From Elusimicrobiota bacterium (GTDB lineage: Bacteria; Elusimicrobiota; Elusimicrobia; UBA1565; UBA9628): a DNA stretch of 14,289 bases. The first letter of the stretch is position 1. Each line of letters starts with the position of its first letter. Location: contig JAHFCD010000006.1 in NCBI GenBank assembly GCA_023249695.1, positions 1 to 14,289 on the forward strand, in the 5' to 3' direction. A program made the position numbers and the translations under genes. Shown here in pieces: positions 2,447 through 13,447 of the stretch. The notes beneath the pieces are model-generated. The model had not been told where the DNA came from. It did no database searches and saw nothing but the letters and a program-made list of their open reading frames with translations.

Positions 2447-3379
2447 TCAAGCGCCGCGGCTCCGCTCGCGAATGATGTCGAGAACGCCCAAGGCGAGCGC
2501 GATTACCAGGGGTCCGATGAACAATCCGGCGAAGCCGAAGGCCTTCATCGCGCCGATCACGCTGATAAAGACCAGCGGGATCGGGAGCTTCATCTTGGTC
2601 CCCAGTAGGATGGGGCGCGCGACGTTGTCGGCCATGCCCACGACCACGGCGAACCAGAGGGCGAGCGCCGCGGCCTTGGCCGCGGCGCCCGAAAGATAAA
2701 GATAGAGGACGACCGGCGCGCCGATGAGGGCCGAGCCGACGAGCGGGATCGGCGAGAGCACGACGCACAGCGCGCCCAGGAGGACCGCGAAGGGCACCTG
2801 GAACAAGGCCAGGCCGGCCCAGGCGAGGCCGCCCTGCAGCAGCGCGATCACGAAGACGCCGTTGATGACGGCCCGCAGGACGTCCCGCACCCGCTCCAGC
2901 AGACGCTCCGTCGCCTCCCGCGGCAGCGGGATGAGCTCGGCCCCGCTCCGGATCATGCGCGGGCCGTCGCGCAGGAAGAGGAAAAGCGAAGCCGCGAACA
3001 CGGCCGCGTTGAGAAGGACCTCGAGCGTGTTCTTGACCAAGGCGCGGGCGAAGATCGCGGCCCACGCGCTCGCCTGCTCGAGGTTCTCGAGCAGGAGCGC
3101 CCGCGGATCGAGCGCGCGCGGAATGGGCAGGCCTTCGAGCCAGGCTCGCGCCGCGGGGTAGGCCTCCGCGGCTTCCCGCGCGATCGTCCAACCGCCCAGA
3201 AAGAAGGGCACGGAGATCAGCAGCGAGATCATCCCCGTCAGCGTCGCGGCGACCGCCGTGGGGTGCTTCGGCGCGCGGGCGGCCAGGGATTCGTGAACGG
3301 GCGCGAGCAGGAGCGCGACGGCGGCGGCCGCGAGCAGGGCGCTGTCGAAAGGGGCGAATATCCTCCTTCCCACCAGCAC
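2447..3379 (-). CDS. AI-2E/PerM-family permease (5' end uncertain)
   Basis: Multi-pass inner-membrane protein of the AI-2E transporter (UPF0118/PerM) family; different members export autoinducer-2 or exchange ions. Residues from the GTG start at 3379: hydrophobic segments at about 10-27, 42-66, 118-137 and 165-300. The family hallmark is clear at the C-terminal end: DNVARPILLG (251-260), LPIPLVFISVIGAMKAFG (265-282) and LFIGPLVIALAL (286-297). The 310 residues are short for the family (about 350). The open frame continues upstream as a hydrophobic stretch (SRYFLLGAGLILVLV), so the real N-terminus is probably at least 21 residues longer. No ATG, GTG or TTG lies in that extension; a CTG at 3442-3440 follows a GAGGG. 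The gene sits directly behind the methyltransferase. Substrate unknown. Confidence 0.87.
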   Translation of the reverse strand: MLVGRRIFAPFDSALLAAAAVALLLAPVHESLAARAPKHPTAVAATLTGMISLLISVPFFLGGWTIAREAAEAYPAARAWLEGLPIPRALDPRALLLENLEQASAWAAIFARALVKNTLEVLLNAAVFAASLFLFLRDGPRMIRSGAELIPLPREATERLLERVRDVLRAVINGVFVIALLQGGLAWAGLALFQVPFAVLLGALCVVLSPIPLVGSALIGAPVVLYLYLSGAAAKAAALALWFAVVVGMADNVARPILLGTKMKLPIPLVFISVIGAMKAFGFAGLFIGPLVIALALGVLDIIRERSRGA

Positions 3380-3464
3380 GAGAATCAGCCCCGCGCCGAG
3401 GAGGAAATAGCGGCTATTCCCGTTCTCGTCGCCGCTGTTCAGGAGACGCCCTCGCGCGCGCCGG

Positions 3465-4631
3465 TCATGTCTTGAGCTCCAGCGTGATCCAATACAGCAG
3501 GACGAAGCTCACGCGCTTGCGGTGCTCGGGGTCGTACTCCCGGCTGTAGGCGTCGTCTCCGTAAAAGTACATCCAGGAATCGCAGGCGTAATAAAGGAAC
3601 CGATGAAGGACGAAGGGATCGAGCAGCAGAAGGAGAGCCGCGTAGGCCGCCTTGCGCGGCGTCGGGCGAACGGCGACGGCTTGAAAATGACGGCGATCCT
3701 CGACTCCGGTCAGGCGGTAATCCTCCGTCTTGTCGGCGACGTTCAGCACATCGAACCAGGTCCGGCACAACGCGAGCGGGCCTTCGTCCACGAAGGGGTA
3801 GTGCCCCGAATACATCTTGTCCATGAAGTAAGCGTGCCAGTAGAACTTCCAGCTCCGGGGCTTGCGGGTCTGGTGGAGGCAGGAGATGAATACGCGGCGG
3901 GAGGGGGACGCGTCGGCGATGAGGTTGGCGGCGAGGGCGCACATGTCCGAATAGATCTCCGTCTGCTTCGCGAGGTCGCGGCGGTCCTCCATGCCGACGT
4001 AGTGCTCGACGGTGTCCATGAAGGTGACCGCGTCGAAGCGGCCGTACAGCCGTTCCTGGAGGCGAGGATCCTCGAGGATGTCCTTCCAGTTCGTCGTGTG
4101 CACCTCGAGCGCGTGCTGCCGGCGGGCGTATTCGGCCTGCTCGGGGGTGACGTTGACGCCGACGGCCGTGCAGCCGAGCTCGTCGCGGCAATACTTGAGC
4201 CAGTCTCCGTAGCCGCAGCCCACGTCGCAGACCGCCATGCCCTTCTTCAGCCCCAGCTGGCCCGCCATGTGCTCGAACTTGGCGCGCTGGGACAGCCGGC
4301 CGTTCGCCATCAAATTGAAGCCGAGATCCCTCCCGGCGCCGGCGGTGCCGTCGTACATGGCGTGAATCCATTGATAGGTCCGGCGCACGCGCAGCTCCGA
4401 GTCGAACAGCAGCGTCTTGCCGAGCCCCCAGAAGAGGGCGTCGTCGAGCGCGAGAGCCGCCAGCCAGAAGAGGCCGCCCCATGGGCCCGTCGCCGCGGCC
4501 AGGCCGGCCGAGGTCAGGAGCAGCCCCCACCAGATGAAGGTGTTCCGGTCGGCGAAATTGAGGAGGGCGTCCGAGCGCGTGTTGTCGGCGCCCGCCCGGT
4601 CGAGGCTCGCGACGGCGGCATCTTTTATCAT
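3465..4631 (-). CDS. Membrane-anchored CFA-synthase-like SAM-dependent methyltransferase
   Basis: 388 residues. Two hydrophobic segments near the N-terminus (about 31-50 and 54-72) suggest membrane anchoring. They are followed by a class I SAM-methyltransferase domain with motif I VCDVGCGYGDW (134-144), GVNVTPEQAEYAR (158-170) and DTVEHYVG (206-213). The last two resemble the GITLSPEQ and EHVG elements of cyclopropane-fatty-acyl-phospholipid synthases and mycolic-acid methyltransferases. A further hydrophobic stretch lies at about 328-348. The likely reaction is methylation of a lipid or small hydrophobic substrate at the membrane; the exact substrate is not readable. The ATG at 4631 begins the conserved-looking sequence MIKDAAVASL but has no good Shine-Dalgarno. 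An in-frame ATG at 4715 would overlap the divergent hydrolase start and is less likely. The stop (TGA 3467-3465) overlaps an ATG that opens only a nine-codon frame before the permease. Confidence 0.88.
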   Translation of the reverse strand: MIKDAAVASLDRAGADNTRSDALLNFADRNTFIWWGLLLTSAGLAAATGPWGGLFWLAALALDDALFWGLGKTLLFDSELRVRRTYQWIHAMYDGTAGAGRDLGFNLMANGRLSQRAKFEHMAGQLGLKKGMAVCDVGCGYGDWLKYCRDELGCTAVGVNVTPEQAEYARRQHALEVHTTNWKDILEDPRLQERLYGRFDAVTFMDTVEHYVGMEDRRDLAKQTEIYSDMCALAANLIADASPSRRVFISCLHQTRKPRSWKFYWHAYFMDKMYSGHYPFVDEGPLALCRTWFDVLNVADKTEDYRLTGVEDRRHFQAVAVRPTPRKAAYAALLLLLDPFVLHRFLYYACDSWMYFYGDDAYSREYDPEHRKRVSFVLLYWITLELKT

Positions 4632-4713
4632 CGTGACGGCGTGCGACGCAACGGTGCGACCAAGGCGCAGATGGCCGCATTGATGCGCACGAACGAAGCG
4701 CGGAGGAGGCGTC

Positions 4714-5400
4714 ATGGCGAAGACCGAGACGAGGCCGGCGTCCGTCCGGATTCCGGCCGACGGAGCGTACCTGAGCGGAGACCTGCGGCTGCCGCCGCGA
4801 GCCCGCGGCCTCGTGGTCTTCGCGCACGGCAGCGGCAGCGGACGCTTGAGCCCGCGCAATCGGTTCGTCGCGGAGTTTCTCGAGCGGCGCGGCCTGGGAA
4901 CCCTGCTCCTCGATCTGCTGACGCCGTCGGAGCAGACCCTCGACGACGCGACGGCGATTCTGCGCTTCGACATCCCCTTGCTGGCCCGCCGCCTGGAGGC
5001 GGCTTCGGACTGGCTGAGGAGCCGGCCGGACACCCGGAAGGCGGCCCTCGGATATTTCGGAGCCAGCACGGGCGCCGCCGCCGCGCTGACGGCCGCGGCG
5101 GCGCGCCCGGGCGAAATCTTCGCCGTGGTGTCGCGCGGCGGCCGGCCGGACCTGGCCTTGGAGTCGCTCGCGCGGGTGCGGGCGCCGGTGCTGCTGATCG
5201 TCGGCGGGAACGACCGCGAAGTGCTCGCGATGAACGAGTCGGCCGCGAGCCTGATGAAGGCGGAGCGAAGGCTCGACGTCGTCCCCGGAGCGACGCACCT
5301 TTTCGAGGAGCCGGGAGCCTTGGAGGCCGCGGCGCGCCTGGCCGCGGATTGGTTCATGGGGCACCTCCCGGCCGCTTCGTTGCGCCCGATCCGGGCATGA
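4714..5400 (+). CDS. Dienelactone-hydrolase-like alpha/beta hydrolase
   Basis: Cytoplasmic alpha/beta-fold hydrolase of the dienelactone hydrolase type, 228 residues, full length for the family. Visible elements are the oxyanion region FAHGSGSG (36-43), the nucleophile elbow GASTG with Ser118, the acid Asp167 in IVGGNDREV (162-170) and the catalytic His195 in GATHLFEEPG (192-201), so the triad is complete. There is no signal peptide. GGAGGAGG (4702-4709) lies four bases before the ATG. It is transcribed divergently from the methyltransferase, whose start is 82 bases away. Its TGA overlaps the ATG of the stress protein gene (ATGA), implying translational coupling. Proteins of this type often sit in stress loci; the natural ester or lactone substrate is unknown. 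Confidence 0.9.
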   Translation: MAKTETRPASVRIPADGAYLSGDLRLPPRARGLVVFAHGSGSGRLSPRNRFVAEFLERRGLGTLLLDLLTPSEQTLDDATAILRFDIPLLARRLEAASDWLRSRPDTRKAALGYFGASTGAAAALTAAAARPGEIFAVVSRGGRPDLALESLARVRAPVLLIVGGNDREVLAMNESAASLMKAERRLDVVPGATHLFEEPGALEAAARLAADWFMGHLPAASLRPIRA

Positions 5401-6296
5401 GACGCTTTCCTCCCCGGCGCATCCTCGTCGCCGCCGACCTCTCCGGACCGTCCCTCTCCGCGATCGAGGCCGGCAAGGCGCTCGCGCTGCGCTGGGGCGC
5501 GGCGCTCGAAATCGTGCACGTCCAGCATCCGCCGTTGGTCGCCGCCTGGGCCGGCTTCGACGGCATGCCGGCGAGCGTGCGCTCTTCGACGCACGAGACC
5601 CGTCGAAAGATCGAGGAGCGCCTCCGCCGCGCCGCGGGAGATTTCCCGGTCGAGCGCCTGAAGCTGGTCATGGTGCACGGCTGGCCGCAGACGGAGCTTC
5701 AAGAGCTGGCGCGTCCGGACCGCGCGGATTTGATGGTCATGGGCACGCACGGCTACGGCGGGCTCGACCGCATGCTCGCGGGCTCGGTCTCCGAGGGCGT
5801 CCTCCGCCGCGCGCGCATTCCCGTGCTCGTCGTGCCCGAGAAAAAGGCCGTCGCCGGCGCCTCCCGGATTCTCGCGCCGTGGAACGGGCGGCCTTACGCG
5901 ACGCGCGCGCTGCGTTGGGCGCGCGAGCTGGCGCGCAGCCTGGGCTCGACGCTGGACGTGCTCTACGTCAACGAGTTCGGGGCGCCGATCGAGAAGGACG
6001 AGGCGATGTGCCGGCGCCTCGTGACGGCTCTCGGCACCGGCCCGGACTGGACGCTGCGCAAGCGCGGAGGGGACGCGCGCGCGCGCATCGCGGCGGAGGC
6101 CAACTCCGGGCGCTACGAGCTCGTGGTGCTGTCCGCGCACCGTCGGGCCCGTCCCGCGGATCTCGTGCTCGGTTCGACGGTGGAGCGCGTGCTGCGGCGC
6201 TCCTCCGTTCCCGTGCTCGCGGTGCCCACCGGCCGTCCCCGCTCGCGCCTGGTCCGGCGCCTGGCCGCGCGCGCCGGGGCGCGCCTTTTTTCCTGA
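5397..6296 (+). CDS. Tandem-domain universal stress protein (UspA family)
   Basis: 299 residues made of two UspA domains, cytoplasmic. Domain 1 starts at RRILVAADLS (7-16) and carries the full ATP-binding signature G-x2-G-x9-G-S as GTHG (116-119) and GS (129-130), followed by IPVLVVP (141-147). Domain 2 (about 157-277) ends with SVPVLAVP and keeps the second half of the signature (GS at 259-260), but the GxxG is replaced by SAHR (246-249), so it probably binds nucleotide poorly or not at all. The start overlaps the hydrolase stop by four bases and the PEBP gene begins six bases after the stop, so all three form one operon. Such proteins help survival under starvation, oxidative or energy stress; the specific trigger here is not visible. 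Confidence 0.92.
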   Translation: MRRFPPRRILVAADLSGPSLSAIEAGKALALRWGAALEIVHVQHPPLVAAWAGFDGMPASVRSSTHETRRKIEERLRRAAGDFPVERLKLVMVHGWPQTELQELARPDRADLMVMGTHGYGGLDRMLAGSVSEGVLRRARIPVLVVPEKKAVAGASRILAPWNGRPYATRALRWARELARSLGSTLDVLYVNEFGAPIEKDEAMCRRLVTALGTGPDWTLRKRGGDARARIAAEANSGRYELVVLSAHRRARPADLVLGSTVERVLRRSSVPVLAVPTGRPRSRLVRRLAARAGARLFS

Positions 6297-6892: not shown

Positions 6893-7222
6893 ATGGCGAC
6901 GACGAGAAGACGCAAGCATCCGCGCACGCTCATGCTGGCGGTCGAGTATCCCCGGCAGGGAGAGAAGGTCGCGTCCTCCATTTACAGCGTCCGCGTCCAC
7001 GCCCCGGAGAGCGCCAAGCGCGTGGGCATTTCGATCGATCAGGGGCGCTGGAAATCCTGCCGGCCCGCGGTCGGGTATTGGTGGTACGACTGGGAGGGGT
7101 ACGAGAACGGCGAGCACCAGATCGTCGTCTCCATGGAGACCGAAGCGGGGACGCGGATCATCTCGGAGCCGCACGAATTCTTCGTCGAGCTCGCGGACCA
7201 GCCCGTCAGTACATCCCTCTGA
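6893..7222 (+). CDS. Small protein with predicted Ig-like beta-sandwich fold, function unknown
   Basis: 109 residues starting at an ATG six bases after AGGAGG (6881-6886). A short basic N-terminus (TTRRRKHPR) is followed by a sequence typical of Ig-like/Big-type domains: VEYPRQGEKVASSIYSVRVHA (about 17-37), then VGISIDQGRWKSC, the aromatic block GYWWYDWEGYENGEH, and EPHEFFVEL near the end. This order (opening 'pattern to be kept', middle 'xSIDxGxW', then 'DGxH' before a closing strand) is what bacterial Ig modules that present a mock substitution of a property usually show. There is no signal peptide or anchor, so an intracellular or partner-binding role is likely. I do not recognise a named family. 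It sits alone, between the stress operon and the promoter of the biosynthetic operon. Confidence 0.8.
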   Translation: MATTRRRKHPRTLMLAVEYPRQGEKVASSIYSVRVHAPESAKRVGISIDQGRWKSCRPAVGYWWYDWEGYENGEHQIVVSMETEAGTRIISEPHEFFVELADQPVSTSL

Positions 7223-7246: not shown

Positions 7247-7275
7247 TTGAGCCGCGGCGAGTAACCGTCTACAAT
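7247..7275 (+). promoter_or_regulatory. Sigma70-type promoter of the five-gene biosynthetic operon
   Basis: TTGAGC (7247-7252) and TACAAT (7270-7275) are separated by exactly 17 bases, a close match to the -35/-10 consensus in an otherwise GC-rich region. Transcription would start near 7282, giving a leader of about 25 bases before the ATG at 7308, with GAGGTG as ribosome site. The preceding bases (7223-7246) are unusually AT-rich for this window, which supports a regulatory region. Confidence 0.7.
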
Positions 7276-7307: not shown

Positions 7308-8840
7308 ATGATTCTGGTCCAGGATTTTCTTCAGACGAGCGCCGCGCGGCAGCCGCGGAAGGTCGCCTTGGTGTGCGGCGAGCGGCGGTTCACGTATGAG
7401 CGGCTCGACGGGATGGTTAACCGGCTGGCCAACGCGCTCATCGAGCGGGGCGTCAGGCGCGGCGATCGCGTCGGACTGTACCTCGACAACTCCGTGGAAT
7501 CCGTCGTGGGGCTCTTTGCCGTGCTGAAGGCGGGGGGGGCGTTCGTCGCGATCAGCCGCGGGGTCAAGCCGGAGAAACTCCTCTCCATTTTGAACGACTG
7601 CGCGGCGTCGGCCGTCATCCTGGACGTCGCCGCCCTGGGGCAGGGCCTGCTCGAGCGCTTGGCCGAGGAAGTGGGCTCGCTGCGCGCCGTCGTCGCCTGC
7701 GGCGGCGCGCCGCGCCCGCGCGCGCCGCTGCTGCTCGACTTCGCCGAGATTCAAGCCTCGGCCTCGGAGCGGGCGCCCGCGGTGCGCAGCATCGATCTGG
7801 ATCTCGCCTGCCTCATCTACACGTCGGGGACGACGGGAGAGTCCAAAGGCGTGATGTGCGATCACGGCAACGTGATCTTCGCCGTGAACGCGATCGCGCG
7901 CTACCTCAAGATCACGGACCGCGACGTCGTTCTGAGCGTGCTCCCGCTGGCCTACAGCTACGGGCTGTACCAGCTGCTGCCGATCTTCTTCAGCGGCGGA
8001 ACCTTGGTGCTCGAGGAGTCCTTCGCGTTTCCCGATCTCGTGCTGGCGAAGATGGCTCAGGAGAAGGTGACCGGGTTCGCGGCCGTGCCCACGATTTACG
8101 CGCGTCTTCTCGGCATGGACCTCGCCCATCTCGATCTCTCGGCGCTGCGCTACCTGACCAACGCCGCGGCCGCGCTGCCCGTCGAGCAGGTCAAGCGCGT
8201 GCGCCGGCTTTTCCCGCGGACGGACCTGTACCTGATGCATGGGCTGACCGAGGCGGCCCGGACGATGTATCTGCCTCCCTCCGAGGTGGACGCGCGCCCG
8301 GCGTCGTCCGGGATCGCGCTCGAAGGCACGGAGCTTTGGCTCGAGGACGAAGACGGCGGCCGGCTCGGCCCGGGAGAGGTGGGCGAGCTCGTCGTGCGCG
8401 GCCGTCACGTGATGCGCGGCTACTGGCGGGCGCCGGAGCAGACGGCCCGGCGCTTTCGGCCCGGCCCGCTGTCGGGGGAGCGGCTGTGCTACAGCGGGGA
8501 CCTGTTCCGGACCGATGAGGCGGGCTATTTCTATTTCGTCAGCCGCAAGGACGACATGATCAAGACGCGGGGGCAGAAGGTCTCTCCCCGCGAAACCGAA
8601 GACGTGCTGTACCGCCTGCCGGGGGTGCAGGAGGCGGCCGTGATCGGCGTGCCGCACCCCGAGCTGGGGCAGGCCGTGAAGGCCTTCATCGTCGCCCCGG
8701 GCGCCGGGCTCATCGAAGCCGCCGTGATCGCGCACTGTAAGAAGCACCTCGAGGAATTCATGGTGCCGCGCGCGGTGGAATTCGTTTCCGAGCTCCCGAA
8801 GACGCCGTCGGGCAAGGTGCGCCGCAGGGATTTGCGCTGA
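7308..8840 (+). CDS. AMP-forming acyl-CoA/acyl-ACP ligase (ANL superfamily)
   Basis: 510 residues. Activates a carboxylic acid with ATP to an acyl-adenylate and passes it to a thiol, either CoA or a carrier-protein phosphopantetheine. All adenylation motifs are present: YTSGTTGESKGVM (171-183), YSYGLYQLLP (217-226), HGLTEAA (311-317), YSGD (395-398), RKDDMIKTRGQKVSP (413-427) and PKTPSGKV (498-505) with the catalytic lysine K503. The domain layout resembles the acyl-CoA ligases associated with exosortase A loci and D-alanine-carrier ligases, but no exosortase is in this window. It is the first gene of the operon; its TGA overlaps the amidotransferase ATG by one base (TGATG at 8838-8842). The ACP encoded four genes on is a plausible acceptor. 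The acid substrate cannot be read from the sequence. Confidence 0.93.
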   Translation: MILVQDFLQTSAARQPRKVALVCGERRFTYERLDGMVNRLANALIERGVRRGDRVGLYLDNSVESVVGLFAVLKAGGAFVAISRGVKPEKLLSILNDCAASAVILDVAALGQGLLERLAEEVGSLRAVVACGGAPRPRAPLLLDFAEIQASASERAPAVRSIDLDLACLIYTSGTTGESKGVMCDHGNVIFAVNAIARYLKITDRDVVLSVLPLAYSYGLYQLLPIFFSGGTLVLEESFAFPDLVLAKMAQEKVTGFAAVPTIYARLLGMDLAHLDLSALRYLTNAAAALPVEQVKRVRRLFPRTDLYLMHGLTEAARTMYLPPSEVDARPASSGIALEGTELWLEDEDGGRLGPGEVGELVVRGRHVMRGYWRAPEQTARRFRPGPLSGERLCYSGDLFRTDEAGYFYFVSRKDDMIKTRGQKVSPRETEDVLYRLPGVQEAAVIGVPHPELGQAVKAFIVAPGAGLIEAAVIAHCKKHLEEFMVPRAVEFVSELPKTPSGKVRRRDLR

Positions 8841-10843
8841 TGTGCGGCATCGCGGGGGTCTTCGACCGCAGCGGGCGCGAGCGGGCCTCCGAGGAGGGCC
8901 TGCGGCGCATGCTGGCGATGCTGCGCCACCGCGGGCCCGATGAGTTCGGGATTCTGCTCGATCGGGAGGCGGGGCTCGGCAGCGCGCGCCTGAGCATCAT
9001 CGATATCGGGGGGGGGAGCCAGCCGATCGCCAACGAGGATCGCACGTTGTGGATCGTCTTCAACGGCGAGATCTTCAACTACCTCGAGCTGCGCGCGGAG
9101 CTGGAAGCGCTCGGCCACCGGTTTCGGACGGCGACGGACACCGAGGTCGTCCTTCACCTTTATCAGCGCTACGGCTCCCGCTGCCTGGCGCGCCTCAACG
9201 GGCAGTTCGCCATCGCGATCTGGGACACCCGGAAGAGGAAGCTCTTTCTCGGCCGCGACCGCCTCGGGGTGCGGCCGTTGTTCTACACGGAGACTCCCGG
9301 CAAGACGCTCCTGTTCGCCTCCGAGATCAAATCCCTTCTGAGCGACCGGCGCGTGCGCGCGGAGATCGACTCCGACGTCGTCCGCCAGATCTTCCTTTTC
9401 TGGGCGCCGCCGGCGCCGCACACGGCGTTTCGGGGCGTCGTCGAGCTTCCACCCGGCCATTTTCTCTCGGCCGACGAGCGCGGCATACGCGTCGAGCGGT
9501 ATTGGGAGAACCGCTTCCCCGAGGAGGGCGGCGGCGCCCCGGCCCCGCGCCGCTTCGAGGAGGTCGTCGAGGAGTTCCGCGCGCTCCTGACCGACGCCTG
9601 CCGCCTCCGGCTGCGCGCCGATGTGCCGGTGGGCGCGTACCTGAGCGGGGGGCTCGATTCCTCGGCCATCGCCGCGCTCGTTCGCCGCAGCAGCGCCAGC
9701 CGCCTCTCGACGTTCTCGATCTCCTTCAGCGACGAGCGATACGACGAAAGCGCCTTCCAGCGGGAGATGGCGTCTCATCTGGGCACCGAGCACCACATGA
9801 TCCGGGCGACCCACGAGGACATCGGCCGGGTTTTCCCGGAGGTGGTCTGGCACGCCGAGGTCCCCATGATGCGCACGGCGCCCGCGCCCATGTTCCTGCT
9901 CTCGAAGCTGGTGCGCGACCGCGGGTTCAAGGTCGTCCTCACGGGGGAGGGAGCCGACGAGTTCCTGGCCGGGTACGATATTTTCAAGGAAGCGAAGGTC
10001 CGCCGGTTCTGGGCGCGTCAGCCGCACGCCTTGCGGCGCGCGACCTTGCTCAAACGCCTCTATCCCGACATCGGCGGCCTGGCGCAAAGCCACCCCGAGC
10101 TGCTCGCGGCGTTCTTCGGCGAGGGCCTCGACGAGACCGAGTCTCCCTGGTACTCCCACGCGGTGCGCTGGCGGAACAACGCACGCACCTGGCGCTTTCT
10201 GCGGGGCGACGGCCCGGCGGCGGAGGCGCCGCATTTCGAGCGCCTGGCGGCCGCGCTGCCGACGAATTTCGGAAAATGGAGCCCGTTGGCCCGGGCCCAG
10301 CATCTGGAGATCGATATATTTTTGTCCCATTACCTCCTCTCTTCCCAGGGCGATCGCATGGGCATGGCCCATTCCATCGAGGGGCGCTTCCCGTTCCTCG
10401 ACTTCCGCCTCACCGAGTTCTGCAACCGCCTCGATCCGCGCCTCAAGCTGCGCGTTCTCGCCGAGAAGCGCCTCTTGAAGGCCGCCGCCGAGCCGTGGCT
10501 GCCGGAGCTGATCCGCGGGAGGGTCAAGCGCCCGTATCGCGCGCCGGTTCATCGCAGCTTCTTCCACGAGGGGGCCCCGGACTATGTCCGCGAGCTCCTC
10601 GGGCCGCGCGCCCTCAAGGACTCCGCGCTGTTCCGTCTCGCGCCCGTGGCGCAGCTCGTCGCGAAGATGTCGAAGGGCGCCCCCGTCGGAGAGACCGACG
10701 ACATGGCGCTGGCGGGCATACTCTCGACCCAGCTCGTACACTACCTGTTCGTGAAGAACTTCCGGCCCGCGCCGCCGCTCCGGGCGACCGAGCCGGTGAA
10801 GGTCTGCCGGCTCAATTCCAGACACAGCGAGGATAATCCATGA
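8840..10843 (+). CDS. Glutamine-hydrolysing asparagine-synthase-family amidotransferase
   Basis: 667 residues, cytoplasmic. The N-terminal class II glutaminase has the nucleophile Cys2 exposed after Met1 (MCGIAGVF), RLSIID (50-55), NGEIFNY (75-81) and Asp100. The C-terminal synthetase domain has the PP-loop SGGLDSS (269-275), TGEGADEFLAGYD (about 365-377) and EGRFPFLD, so both half-reactions look intact: glutamine to ammonia, and ATP-dependent activation of a carboxylate for amide formation. In a free-standing gene this would be called AsnB. Its tight coupling to an acyl ligase and NadE-like gene suggests a pathway-specific amidotransferase, as in polysaccharide and peptide loci. TGATG couples it to the ligase, and ATGA (10840-10843) couples it to the next gene. 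A nine-G run (9008-9016) lies in the coding sequence. Confidence 0.92.
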   Translation: MCGIAGVFDRSGRERASEEGLRRMLAMLRHRGPDEFGILLDREAGLGSARLSIIDIGGGSQPIANEDRTLWIVFNGEIFNYLELRAELEALGHRFRTATDTEVVLHLYQRYGSRCLARLNGQFAIAIWDTRKRKLFLGRDRLGVRPLFYTETPGKTLLFASEIKSLLSDRRVRAEIDSDVVRQIFLFWAPPAPHTAFRGVVELPPGHFLSADERGIRVERYWENRFPEEGGGAPAPRRFEEVVEEFRALLTDACRLRLRADVPVGAYLSGGLDSSAIAALVRRSSASRLSTFSISFSDERYDESAFQREMASHLGTEHHMIRATHEDIGRVFPEVVWHAEVPMMRTAPAPMFLLSKLVRDRGFKVVLTGEGADEFLAGYDIFKEAKVRRFWARQPHALRRATLLKRLYPDIGGLAQSHPELLAAFFGEGLDETESPWYSHAVRWRNNARTWRFLRGDGPAAEAPHFERLAAALPTNFGKWSPLARAQHLEIDIFLSHYLLSSQGDRMGMAHSIEGRFPFLDFRLTEFCNRLDPRLKLRVLAEKRLLKAAAEPWLPELIRGRVKRPYRAPVHRSFFHEGAPDYVRELLGPRALKDSALFRLAPVAQLVAKMSKGAPVGETDDMALAGILSTQLVHYLFVKNFRPAPPLRATEPVKVCRLNSRHSEDNP

Positions 10844-11835
10844 TCCGATTCAGCACGAACGTCATCGACATCGATTCAGGCGCGGAAACGGACCGCATCG
10901 TCGCGTTTCTGCAGCGCAACGTGCGCCGGGAGATGAAGCGGCGGGGCGCCGTCGTCGGCATCAGCGGCGGCATCGACTCGGCCGTCGTGCTGGCCCTGTC
11001 CGTGCGGGCCTTCGGCGCCCGGAACGTCACGGCGGTGATGATGCCCGACCGGGACTCCGATCCGATCAGCGAACGGCTCGCGCGCGCGCTTGCCGCCCGC
11101 TACGGCGTCGAGCCCCTCCTGGAGGACATCACGGCGGCCCTGGAAGGCTTCGACTGCTATCGACGGCGCGACGACGCCATTCGCCGGGTGTTCCCCGAAT
11201 TCGACGCGGCCAAGGGCTACAAGTCGAAGATCGTCCTTCCGCAGGATCTGCTCGAGGCCGGAACCTTCAACGTGTATTCCGTCACGGTCGTCGCCCCGGA
11301 CGGGCGGGAGGAGACCCGCCCGCTCGGCGCGCGGGAGATGCTGGAGATCACGGCCGCCTCGAACCTCAAGCAGCGCTCGCGCATGAGCGTCCTCTATTTC
11401 CACGCCGAGGCGCGCCAGTTCGCCGTCATCGGCACCTCGAACAAGAACGAGCACGCGCAGGGTTTCTTCGTCAAGCACGGCGACGGGGGGGTCGACATCC
11501 AGGCCATCGCGCACCTGTTCAAGACCCAGGTGTATCAGCTGTCCCGGCATCTCGACGTGCCGGTGAGCATCCAGCAGCGCACGCCGACGACGGACACCTA
11601 CAGCGCGCCCTGCGACCAGCAGGAGTTCTTCTTCCGGCTGCCGTTCGCGACCCTGGATCCCATCTGGTTCGCGCGGGAGAATCGCATTCCCGTCCCCGAG
11701 GTCGCCCGGGGCATGGGCTTGCCCGAAGTCCAGGTCCAGCGGGTCTACGACGACATCGCCGGAAAGCAGAGCACGACCGAGTATCTGCGGCTGAGCCCGC
11801 CGATCCTCGACCCGGCGAAGCCGGCATACGCGTGA
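10840..11835 (+). CDS. Divergent NAD+-synthase-like ATP-dependent amidating enzyme
   Basis: 331 residues, NadE-type adenine-nucleotide alpha-hydrolase fold without a nitrilase (glutaminase) domain. Visible are the PP-loop GISGGIDSAVV (40-50), ASNLKQRSRMSVLYF (173-187, where true NadE has NxxARxRM), GTSNKNEHAQGFFVKHGDGGVD (198-219) and FKTQVYQLSRHLDVP (227-241). It differs from housekeeping NadE in two ways. About 60 extra residues (roughly 105-170) sit between the PP-loop half and the NLKQRSRM motif. The DExxLG element after PTAD is replaced by CDQQEFFFRLP (258-268). It probably adenylates a carboxylate and attacks it with ammonia, but perhaps not on deamido-NAD. Ammonia might come from the adjacent amidotransferase. 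The start overlaps the upstream stop by four bases (ATGA). Confidence 0.87.
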   Translation: MIRFSTNVIDIDSGAETDRIVAFLQRNVRREMKRRGAVVGISGGIDSAVVLALSVRAFGARNVTAVMMPDRDSDPISERLARALAARYGVEPLLEDITAALEGFDCYRRRDDAIRRVFPEFDAAKGYKSKIVLPQDLLEAGTFNVYSVTVVAPDGREETRPLGAREMLEITAASNLKQRSRMSVLYFHAEARQFAVIGTSNKNEHAQGFFVKHGDGGVDIQAIAHLFKTQVYQLSRHLDVPVSIQQRTPTTDTYSAPCDQQEFFFRLPFATLDPIWFARENRIPVPEVARGMGLPEVQVQRVYDDIAGKQSTTEYLRLSPPILDPAKPAYA

Positions 11836-11849
11836 TTGGAGGCTGAGAT

Positions 11850-12146
11850 ATGGATAGGCACACGATCGACGGACACATCGAAGCCGCGTTGAGAGGCTTC
11901 ATCGCGGAAAATCTGCTCTTCAGCGAGCAGGGCTTCCCGTATCCCGACGACGTCTCCCTGCTGCGCGAAAGGATCATCGATTCGCTCGGGGTGGTGGAGC
12001 TGGCCGCCTTCGTGGGCCAGCGCTTCGGCGTGCGGGTGGAGCAGACGGAGGTCCGCCCGGAGAATTTCGACTCGATCGCCAAGCTGGCCGCCTTCGTGAG
12101 GCGAAAGCAAAGCGGCGTGCGGCCCGAAGCCGCTCACCCGGCCTGA
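11850..12146 (+). CDS. Acyl carrier protein
   Basis: 98 residues with the four-helix carrier-protein pattern. The phosphopantetheine attachment site is Ser45 in [11 protein letters not shown] (41-51), equivalent to the DSL motif. The acidic recognition helix follows ([15 protein letters not shown]), and [13 protein letters not shown] closes the fold. The DSLG context and the relatively neutral charge are unlike the housekeeping fatty-acid ACP (DSLDTVEL, strongly acidic), so this is a specialised carrier. GGAGG (11838-11842) lies seven bases before the ATG, and the gene starts 14 bases after the NadE-like stop. It needs a phosphopantetheinyl transferase from elsewhere in the genome. Likely partners are the acyl ligase (loading) and the LpxD-like enzyme (off-loading). 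Confidence 0.92.
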
Positions 12147-12154
12147 GGCGGGCG

Positions 12155-13024
12155 ATGGGTAAGCAGCTGCTGCGTCCGATTCGGGCTTCCCGGCTGAGCC
12201 GGGAGCTGGGGCTCGAGCTCTTCGGCGTCGATCGCGAGATCCGGGAGCTGTGCGGCGTGGACGCGCTTTCCGCCCACGCCCTTTCGTTCTCGCGGGACCG
12301 GCGGCCGGGCGCGGCCTCCTCCGGCACGCTTTTCGCCGCGGAGCCGCCGGACTCGGAGGCCTTGACCGTGCTCCGGTCGATCAAGCCGAGGCTCGAGTTC
12401 ATCCGCGCCCAGCATTTGCTGATGGCCTCTCCGGGGTTCGTCGACGACGAGTCGCCTCCCGACATTCACGCCACGGCGCGGATCGGGCGAGGCGCGGTCG
12501 TCGAGAACGGCGTCCGCATCGGGGAAGGCACCCGAATCGGCAGCCTGGCGGTGATCAAGTCCGGCACGACGATCGGCAAGTTCTGCGTCGTCAAATCCGG
12601 CGCCGTGATCGGGGAATCCGGCTTCGGCCCCGAGCGCGACGCGCTGAACCGGCCGCTCATGATGATCCATTTCGGGGGGGTGCGCATCGGAGACCACGTG
12701 GAGATCGGGAGCCTGACCACGGTCTGCCGGGGCGCGCTCGGCGACACCGTGGTCGGGAGCCACGTCAAGATCGACGATCATTGCCACATCTCCCATAATT
12801 GCCGCATCGGCGAAGGCGCGATGATCACGGCTTGCGTCGAGATCAGCGGGTCGGTCGAGATCGGGAAGAACGCCTGGTTGGCGCCCGGCTGCGCCTTGAT
12901 CCAGAAGATCTTCATCGGCGAGGACAGCTTCATCGGCATCGGGGCGGTCGTGACCCACAGCGTCCCCGCGCGATCGCGGGTCTTCGGAAATCCGGCGCGG
13001 CCGCTGCCCCCCGCCGCGATGTAG
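12155..13024 (+). CDS. LpxD-like left-handed beta-helix N-acyltransferase (short form)
   Basis: 289 residues. An LpxD-like N-terminal domain (about 15-95: [15 protein letters not shown], then LSFSRD) is followed by hexapeptide repeats of the left-handed beta-helix ([26 protein letters not shown]...). The catalytic region matches LpxD closely: [11 protein letters not shown] (191-201), [16 protein letters not shown] (204-219) with the presumed catalytic His214 (equivalent of E. coli His239), and [18 protein letters not shown]. The C-terminal helical extension of true LpxD (about 340 residues), which helps bind ACP, is missing. It probably transfers an acyl group from the neighbouring ACP to an amine, perhaps of a nucleotide sugar. 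No lpxA, fabZ or bamA lies nearby, so it is unlikely to be the lipid A enzyme. It begins eight bases after the ACP stop, with GAGG before the ATG. Confidence 0.9.
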
Positions 13025-13126: not shown

Positions 13127-13447
13127 ATGAGGACATTGCTGAAGATCACCATGCCGCCCGAGCCGGCCAATAAGGCCATCAAGGACGGCAGCCTGCCCAA
13201 GCTGTTCCAGACGCTGACCGAGTCCGTGCATCCCGAGTCGAGCTACTACTATTCCGAAAACGGCAAGCGCACGGCGTTCTTCGTCTTCGACATGAAGGAC
13301 GCCTCGCAGATCCCGTCCTTGTGCGAGCCCTTCTTCATGAGCCTCAACGCCGACGTGTCCTTTTACCCGGTGATGAACTCCGAGGAGCTGAAGGCCGGCT
13401 TGGAAAAGGCGATGCGGAACATCGGCCGCCTCCCCGTCGGAGTCTGA
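13127..13447 (+). CDS. Conserved small protein of unknown function (often mis-named 'pantothenate synthetase')
   Basis: 106 residues, starting at an ATG five bases after AGGAGG (13116-13121). The sequence has a repetitive beta-alpha-beta feel of a ferredoxin-like fold: MRTLLKITMPPEPANKAIKDG, then GSLPKLFQTL, YYYSENGKRTAFFVFDMKDASQIP (about 40-63), EPFFMSLNADVSFYPVMNSEEL (about 67-88). The blocks GSLPK, NGKRT, DASQIP, EPFF and PVM recur in a family of roughly 95-residue bacterial proteins of unknown role, some labelled pantothenate synthetase without support from PanC motifs; none of the PanC ATP-binding HxGH signatures is here. This family match is from memory. It is followed by a very strong terminator, so its transcript ends immediately downstream. 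Confidence 0.85.
   Translation: MRTLLKITMPPEPANKAIKDGSLPKLFQTLTESVHPESSYYYSENGKRTAFFVFDMKDASQIPSLCEPFFMSLNADVSFYPVMNSEELKAGLEKAMRNIGRLPVGV

Follow-up and report, generated by a model that had tools for sequence, protein, structure and literature searches.

The window analysed here is a stretch of 14,289 nucleotides from an Elusimicrobiota bacterium (assembly GCA_023249695.1, contig JAHFCD010000006.1, our C340), whose genome is a 2.97-Mb draft, 73% complete. Within it we studied a run of five genes on the forward strand that encode an acyl ligase, an AsnB-type amidotransferase, a NadE-like enzyme, a small carrier protein and an LpxD-like acyltransferase (Table 1). The initial annotation had described these as an operon, and calling of open reading frames (ORFs) confirmed the five same-strand genes; the junctions are also in the sequence as described, namely a TGATG (1-base overlap), an ATGA (4-base overlap) and gaps of 14 and 8 bases. 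The operon had further been placed behind a single promoter. One weak sigma-70-like match lies before the first ATG, 32 bases upstream of it, which makes transcription from one promoter plausible but does not establish it; three such sites were found between positions 7000 and 13200, against 0.5 expected in shuffled sequences. The five family assignments held: PF00501 scored 288 bits, PF00733 299, PF02540 165 and Hexapep 84, and the carrier was assigned by its PDB matches. The GC content of the genes (0.65-0.68; window 0.69) and their third-position GC (0.85-0.91) resemble those of the neighbouring genes. Scanning the window for Rfam families and for tRNA genes gave no match.

Table 1. Features of the window and of related loci. 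Loci are numbered L; aa:CP ligase, amino acid:[carrier protein] ligase; C-T-TE, condensation-carrier-thioesterase.
Feature	Position	Strand	Details
AMP-forming acyl ligase	7308..8840	+	510 aa; PF00501, PF13193; best NCBIfam model TIGR03098, below cut-off
AsnB-type glutamine-dependent amidotransferase	8840..10843	+	667 aa; PF13537, PF00733; TIGR01536 above cut-off
NadE-like PP-loop enzyme without glutaminase domain	10840..11835	+	331 aa; NF002048 above cut-off
Small acyl/peptidyl carrier protein	11850..12146	+	98 aa; PDB matches, DS motif
LpxD-like left-handed beta-helix acyltransferase	12155..13024	+	289 aa; TIGR01853 below cut-off
Weak sigma-70-like promoter match	7247..7275	+	TTGAGC-17-TACAAT; 9/12 positions
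C-T-TE family near cassette	L084:2794-5418, L087:2447-5206, L090:1972-4548, L094:3416-6103, L044:11017-13569		
SGNH-like families beside cassette	L051:11012-11941, L099:8778-9581 and relatives		Called by eye
Elusimicrobiota LpxD-like genes outside cassette, near aa:CP-ligase-like gene	L118:9473-12204, L116:6383-9356, L117:9986-12427		

Conservation and inheritance of a four-gene core

The first four genes form a core, here called the cassette, that recurs in distant bacteria. Searching named genomes with an alignment of 21 NadE-like proteins, we confirmed 450 relatives and analysed the best 80 loci, seeking partners by tblastn with the window and rhizobial proteins. These 80 include near copies, and eight were removed for the counts given without near copies. 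The same eight were left out of the distance correlations and of the distal ORF set described below, and one selection further omitted L019, L020 and L022. Where the sequence extended at least 5 kb upstream and at least 1.5 kb downstream (50 eligible loci), the carrier, ligase and AsnB genes all lay within 6 kb of the NadE-like gene in 42, or in 35 of 43 once near copies are removed; when short-contig loci are counted too, all four genes are present in 50 of the 80. Among the eight exceptions, the four genes of L064 are all present but spread more widely, and in L074 the AsnB and carrier genes are missing by the 6-kb test. The order of the core genes varies between loci, and the hosts include Verrucomicrobiota, Acidobacteriota, Chloroflexota, Cyanobacteriota and others. 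The four core genes are likewise adjacent on pSymB of Sinorhizobium meliloti 1021, with identities to the window of 50% for the ligase, 51% for AsnB, 46% for the NadE-like protein and 39% for the carrier; as there, the four genes of the window stand together in one direction. In annotated strains of S. meliloti and S. medicae the order is asnB, ACP (acyl carrier protein), ligase, nadE. The grouping is more than chance.

The ligase, AsnB and NadE-like proteins have pairwise distances that correlate at 0.77-0.87 across 40 rows, each with all three large genes: the window, four loci on rhizobial plasmids (two of which share identical NadE-like proteins) and 35 of the 80 named loci. With the four rhizobial rows removed the correlation is 0.67-0.78 (36 rows), and in both tests none of 999 permutations reached the observed value. 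Since the genes are kept together and their distances co-vary, the core is inherited largely as one unit. The initial annotation had proposed, as its own test, that all five genes should be kept together in related genomes: four are kept across phyla, but the fifth is exchanged.

Within its own phylum the cassette is rare. A NadE-like gene was detected (E <= 1e-60) in five genomes of a phylum set of 340 (genomes numbered G), four of which belong to the genus of the window and the fifth to a different family of the same order. The closest named relatives of the window are Elusimicrobiota, 86-88% identical; two named loci, L022 and L023, were taken to be the same as G015:C337 and G006:C81. A tree of 85 NadE-like proteins places the window, L022 and L023 in one Elusimicrobiota clade, nested in a well-supported group of ten that also includes Verrucomicrobiota and Acidobacteriota (support 100/99). 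This patchy presence together with the nested position suggests that the Elusimicrobiota cassette was acquired laterally from Verrucomicrobiota- or Acidobacteriota-like bacteria.

The core enzymes and their namesakes

Copies of the ligase and AsnB proteins were aligned if long enough and above 400 bits, and those of the other proteins if long enough. The AsnB-type protein has both marks that we required of an asparagine synthase, a TIGR01536 score above cut-off (510 bits; cut-off 267) and an N-terminal Cys; Cys2, SGGLDSS and GEGADE are conserved in 68 aligned copies. The same 68 copies share a family motif, RxKxPYRAP, where Escherichia coli AsnB has RQKEQF.

The NadE-like protein scores 423 bits with NF002048, an NAD(+) synthase subfamily model (cut-off 313). 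It has the NadE fold and ATP site: Foldseek finds solved NadE entries with its AlphaFold model (mean predicted confidence, pLDDT, 88.6; top match TM 0.82 by target length, 24% identity), and the SGGxDS PP-loop ATP site is invariant in 44 copies. It departs from NadE elsewhere. In NadE a PSA-type loop closes over nicotinic acid adenine dinucleotide (NaAD); the form of this loop common to three solved NadE enzymes, PSA-x-L-x3-Q-x-DE, is absent from the cassette enzyme, and the solved-NadE loop PSAGLWEGQTDED reads PTTDTYSAPCDQQEF in the protein of the window. The family has instead PTxDTYSxxxxQxEFF, in which P, D, T, Y, Q, E and the first F do not vary among 47 copies, and residues ~105-168 are an insertion that does not align to NadE. 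A piece of another NAD synthetase gene lies at the start of contig C195 of the same genome; with this other gene present, and with the cassette gene confined to so few genomes of the phylum, the cassette enzyme is probably not the housekeeping NadE. With their kept catalytic motifs the enzymes of the core, the ligase among them, look active and specialised.

The ligase probably loads the carrier protein. Its end-motif G-K is present in 51 of 51 aligned copies, the window included, and the pocket stretch PLxxxYGLYQLL is conserved among them. At position 217, which we take to be the counterpart of the FD-motif Asp to which the alpha-amino group binds (D235 in GrsA), 40 of the 51 copies have Asp, nine Ser and two Gly; a pairwise alignment instead sets the Tyr next to position 217 opposite the FD-motif Asp. 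With Asp in so many copies, an amino acid may be the substrate of most cassette ligases. The window is in the group with Ser, along with L023, L024, L025, L027, L029, L030, L033 and L063, and because of this pocket Ser the acid used by the window and its near relatives may differ from that of other cassettes. A hexapeptide gene stands beside the cassette in five of these eight relatives (L023, L024, L025, L029 and L033), a link that may reflect descent, since members of the Ser group are mostly close kin in the tree. We dropped the reading that the ligase acid has no alpha-amino group, which rested on one pairwise alignment and is at odds with the Asp in 40 of 51 relatives.

The carrier protein gave no Pfam match at 1e-3 and matched three small-ACP models, all below their cut-offs. 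Four of its five PDB matches are named carrier proteins, most of the matches being named as peptidyl carriers, and the top match, 6cxt_A (77 residues), was deposited under another name. The DS motif is kept in 21 of 21 aligned copies.

The fifth gene and other cassette neighbours

By sequence as well as by fold, the LpxD-like protein is matched best by solved LpxD entries, and the first 24 fold matches are all LpxD, with low TM-scores because the model is weak overall (predicted TM-score 0.59). With TIGR01853, however, the protein scores 161 bits (157.9 in the genome search) against a cut-off of 242.5. LpxD genes above that cut-off were found in all seven Elusimicrobiota genomes examined, including that of the window (C144, partial, and C315), and we accordingly rejected an identity as the LpxD of lipid A.

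The LpxD-like gene adjoins the cassette in four of the five Elusimicrobiota genomes with the NadE-like gene (G000, G006, G015 and G016) but is found beside it, at >200 bits, in one of the 80 named loci, which places it outside the general core. At E <= 1e-60 it occurs in eight of the 340 genomes, including three without a NadE-like match (G002, G024 and G031), and G016 has a second copy. Together with an LpxD-like piece on another contig of G027, five copies lie outside the cassette. Three of these (G002, G024 and the second copy of G016) are ~1 kb or less from a gene resembling an amino acid:[carrier protein] ligase, a call made by PF00587 or by NCBIfam PRK07080 below its cut-off. In G016 the best PDB match of this ligase-like protein is a solved amino acid:[carrier protein] ligase, and a HetI-like phosphopantetheinyl transferase (below cut-off) and a small carrier lie nearby; in G002 the neighbours are an AurF-like gene (PF11583) and a carrier read by eye. 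Among the loci of this kind listed in Table 1, L118 has a carrier, a HetI-like phosphopantetheinyl transferase and, by eye, a protein similar to AurF, and L116 encodes an AurF-like protein. The set looks like a second, different carrier-charging module, and because the LpxD-like gene stands near two unrelated carrier-charging systems, we suggest that its product takes an acyl group from a carrier protein.

Other acyl-transfer genes adjoin the cassette elsewhere. Of the 42 loci with at least 2.5 kb on both sides of the cassette, 32 carry a gene of acyl-transfer type no more than 2.5 kb away, 26 carry a glycan gene no more than 10 kb away, and 41 carry at least one of the two kinds; once near copies are removed, these counts become 26, 23 and 35 of 36. 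The acyl-transfer families counted are hexapeptide proteins, acyltransferase-3, GNAT/FemAB, two secreted-looking SGNH-like families and a nonribosomal peptide synthetase (NRPS) protein of C-T-TE type. Downstream of the cassette, the first 2.5 kb has such a gene in 26 of 48 loci, the next 2.5 kb in 2 of 42 and the 2.5 kb after that in 1 of 37, a contrast inflated by our choice of the families after viewing the loci. As a less biased check, a Pfam scan of 96 adjacent ORFs gave Hexapep 8 times, Acyl_transf_3 5 times and Condensation 3 times; among 120 random distal ORFs (of 179) all three fell outside the 25 commonest families, the lowest entries of which have 3 members. Neighbour ORFs came from a simple script, and some may be wrong frames; the DegT, epimerase, GT2, GT4, sugar transferase and Wzz labels were given by eye to sequence clusters, and for other clusters single members were scanned with Pfam.

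After the cassette, L026 has an FdtA-type gene and a flippase gene, and L024 has GNAT and FemAB-like genes (weak matches) together with genes for proteins related to FdtA, to a hexapeptide protein and to a DegT-like protein; these FdtA-type, flippase, GNAT/FemAB-like and DegT-like neighbours point to acylation of an amino sugar in both loci. Proteins of the two SGNH-like families carry a signal-like stretch at the N terminus and either GHQSVG or HHSTG as a motif, with almost no Pfam matches (one weak GDSL).

Some further genes were seen near cassettes. On the reverse strand of the window, 3465-4697 encodes a methyltransferase with weak similarity to cyclopropane-fatty-acid synthase, and a similar-looking protein is encoded upstream of the cassette in L120. 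Directly after the operon, 13127-13447 (forward strand) encodes a small protein with a sub-threshold DUF3303 match. A gene that by eye resembles phosphoenolpyruvate synthase stands directly upstream of the ligase in L120 (3256-5631) and L121 (~2922-5438), unlike in the window, which has no such gene there.

Proposed function and relation to known systems

We propose that a portable, laterally mobile four-gene module makes an amidated acyl-carrier donor, and that its partner in the window is an LpxD-like transferase with an amino sugar as acceptor; we put the probability of this reading at about one half. The ligase would adenylate a carboxylic acid and load it on the cassette's own carrier. 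Carboxylates would be amidated by the AsnB-type enzyme with glutamine nitrogen and by the NadE-like enzyme with ammonia or another amine, in each case before or after loading. A separately recruited transferase would then receive the finished acyl-carrier and set the acceptor; here the LpxD-like enzyme would most likely N-acylate a nucleotide-linked amino sugar destined for a surface glycan. Often the donor would perhaps be an aminoacyl-carrier. The substrate, the amidation sites, the order of steps and the acceptor are what we infer; the gene set, its conservation and co-variation, the catalytic motifs and the neighbours are observed. Much of this was in the initial annotation, which had the ligase loading the ACP, two amidations and an LpxD-like transfer yielding an acylated, amidated sugar or small molecule. 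Our findings fit that idea, and the acyl-transfer and polysaccharide neighbours and the LpxD-like copies near another carrier-charging enzyme strengthen it, but overall it is supported only in part.

Several observations weigh against our proposal. No product, substrate or acceptor is on record; the window has no recognised polysaccharide gene, and no transferase or glycan gene lies inside the four-gene run of Sinorhizobium. Ten of the 42 neighbour loci have no gene of acyl-transfer type, and the hindsight in the choice of those families has been mentioned. Glycan genes are equally common away from the cassette: glycosyltransferases and epimerases occur in both the adjacent and the distal ORFs, and they therefore mark the wider locus rather than the cassette edge. 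The LpxD-like protein ends in GNPA, an ending common among CoA-dependent acetyltransferases, so that its use of a carrier is not proven. In G027 the cassette has no LpxD-like gene in the 1.2 kb after the carrier, and two of the five outside copies (G031 and G027) have other neighbours. Finally, amidation of a substrate other than NaAD is read from the loop, insertion and neighbours of the NadE-like enzyme.

An objection to our proposal could be that the cassette serves lipid synthesis, the ligase recycling fatty acids or activating them onto a special ACP, the LpxD-like enzyme acylating a lipid A-like or aminolipid acceptor, and the AsnB-type and NadE-like enzymes amidating the head group. In the available text of PMC7232532, which cites Ramos-Vega 2009 as the primary study, SMb20650 of S. 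meliloti is termed a predicted long-chain ligase, its gene and the gene of the ACP SMb20651 are cotranscribed, and co-expressing SMb20650 in E. coli yields acylated SMb20651 (a result for the S. meliloti pair only); yet SMb20650 cannot replace FadD, neither supporting growth on oleate nor removing free fatty acids. We identify this pair with the genes found on pSymB by product, neighbour and plasmid, because our pSymB record is unannotated. The 2009 study reportedly gave the composition of the pSymB operon and an acylation of the ACP with C12 and C18 chains, and LpxD uses long 3-hydroxyacyl-ACP, both of which favour a lipid; so does the weak match of the carrier to an ornithine-lipid ACP model (37 of 130 bits). 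On the other hand, the PDB matches of the carrier are mostly named as peptidyl carriers, the ligase pocket has Asp in most copies, and phospholipid-type acyltransferases are absent from the 25 commonest families of the adjacent ORFs. We consider a lipid product unlikely.

We hold it just as improbable that the carrier-bound acyl unit enters an NRPS-like step and leaves the cell as a secreted amide, siderophore-like or a signal, decorated by the hexapeptide enzyme. The evidence for such a diffusible small molecule is that the best PDB match of the AsnB-type enzyme is a hydroxyamidotransferase, that those of the ligase are NRPS proteins, and that five loci (four cyanobacteria and one acidobacterium) have a C-T-TE-family protein near the cassette, with no adenylation domain in the same protein; its domains were scanned individually in L084 only. 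Most loci, however, show no C-T-TE-family protein, exporter and receptor families are absent from the 25 commonest of the adjacent ORFs, and glycan genes accompany the cassette in more than half of the neighbour loci. Least of all do we credit ordinary metabolism, that is, a spare asparagine synthetase and a spare NAD synthetase in an operon with unrelated lipid genes: both curated models score above cut-off and annotation pipelines use these names, but the four genes stay together and co-vary across distant phyla, the genome has another NAD synthetase piece, the loop and insertion are unlike NadE, and a mere 5 of 340 genomes of the phylum have the gene.

A bolder form of our proposal, which we advance tentatively and trust less, is that the cassette is a widespread mobile source of donors, in which two PP-loop amidations would yield a novel amide-bearing acyl- or aminoacyl-carrier thioester, interchangeable transferases would pass it on, and amidated surface substituents would result in many phyla, the names NadE and AsnB being wrong there. 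If true, it would mean an undescribed class of such substituents, and NAD synthetase annotations would need large-scale correction; at least 6215 of 8000 scored candidates matched the NadE-like search at E <= 0.001, a count of all types in which the cassette type is not separated. The piecemeal asparagine, NAD and fatty-acid annotation across phyla more likely hides one pathway, and the recurrent pairing with different acyltransferases makes the pathway question testable.

Four known systems bear comparison. LpxD shares the hexapeptide helix of the fifth-gene product and supplies its top solved structures by sequence and by fold; the product differs in falling below the TIGR01853 cut-off, in its GNPA end and in being a paralogue of LpxD genes that pass. 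In systems of the Bradyrhizobium Bll0957 type a dedicated ligase charges a small carrier, and a gene of this type is near three of the five LpxD-like copies outside the cassette; that ligase is of class II aminoacyl-tRNA synthetase type rather than an AMP-ligase, and no amidating enzymes were seen beside it. The ligase and amidotransferase associated with exosortase A (XrtA) sit in exopolysaccharide loci. The initial annotation had noted a partial resemblance to this pair, which is real at the family level: TIGR03098 (464 bits) and TIGR03108 (416 bits) are the best and second-best NCBIfam models for the window ligase and amidotransferase. Both scores are below the curated cut-offs (592 and 817), for which reason we rejected an XrtA system, and no exosortase, pyridoxal-phosphate decarboxylase or glycosyltransferase was recognised in the window.

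The closest counterpart is the pSymB operon, reportedly asnB-SMb20651-SMb20650-nadE1. The open-licence literature yielded no paper on the five-family set and no product for the four-gene core. The claim that no characterised pathway has this combination stands as regards a product in the literature searched, but the core itself was already known from S. meliloti. As far as their available text goes, PMC9386255 and PMC10315480 cite or list the SMb20650 and SMb20651 genes, the NadE1 of PMC7196632 is a glutamine-dependent enzyme of other bacteria, PMC2922099 concerns another system, and PMC11631085 gives aminolipid background only. The core is known, then, from one organism, and we did not find its spread over phyla, lateral movement or exchangeable transferase described in that literature. 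All four core genes are adjacent in both the pSymB operon and the window; the former has another gene order and no LpxD-like gene, whereas the window reads ligase-asnB-nadE-ACP-lpxD. The window is a variant of this known core, with an LpxD-like partner.

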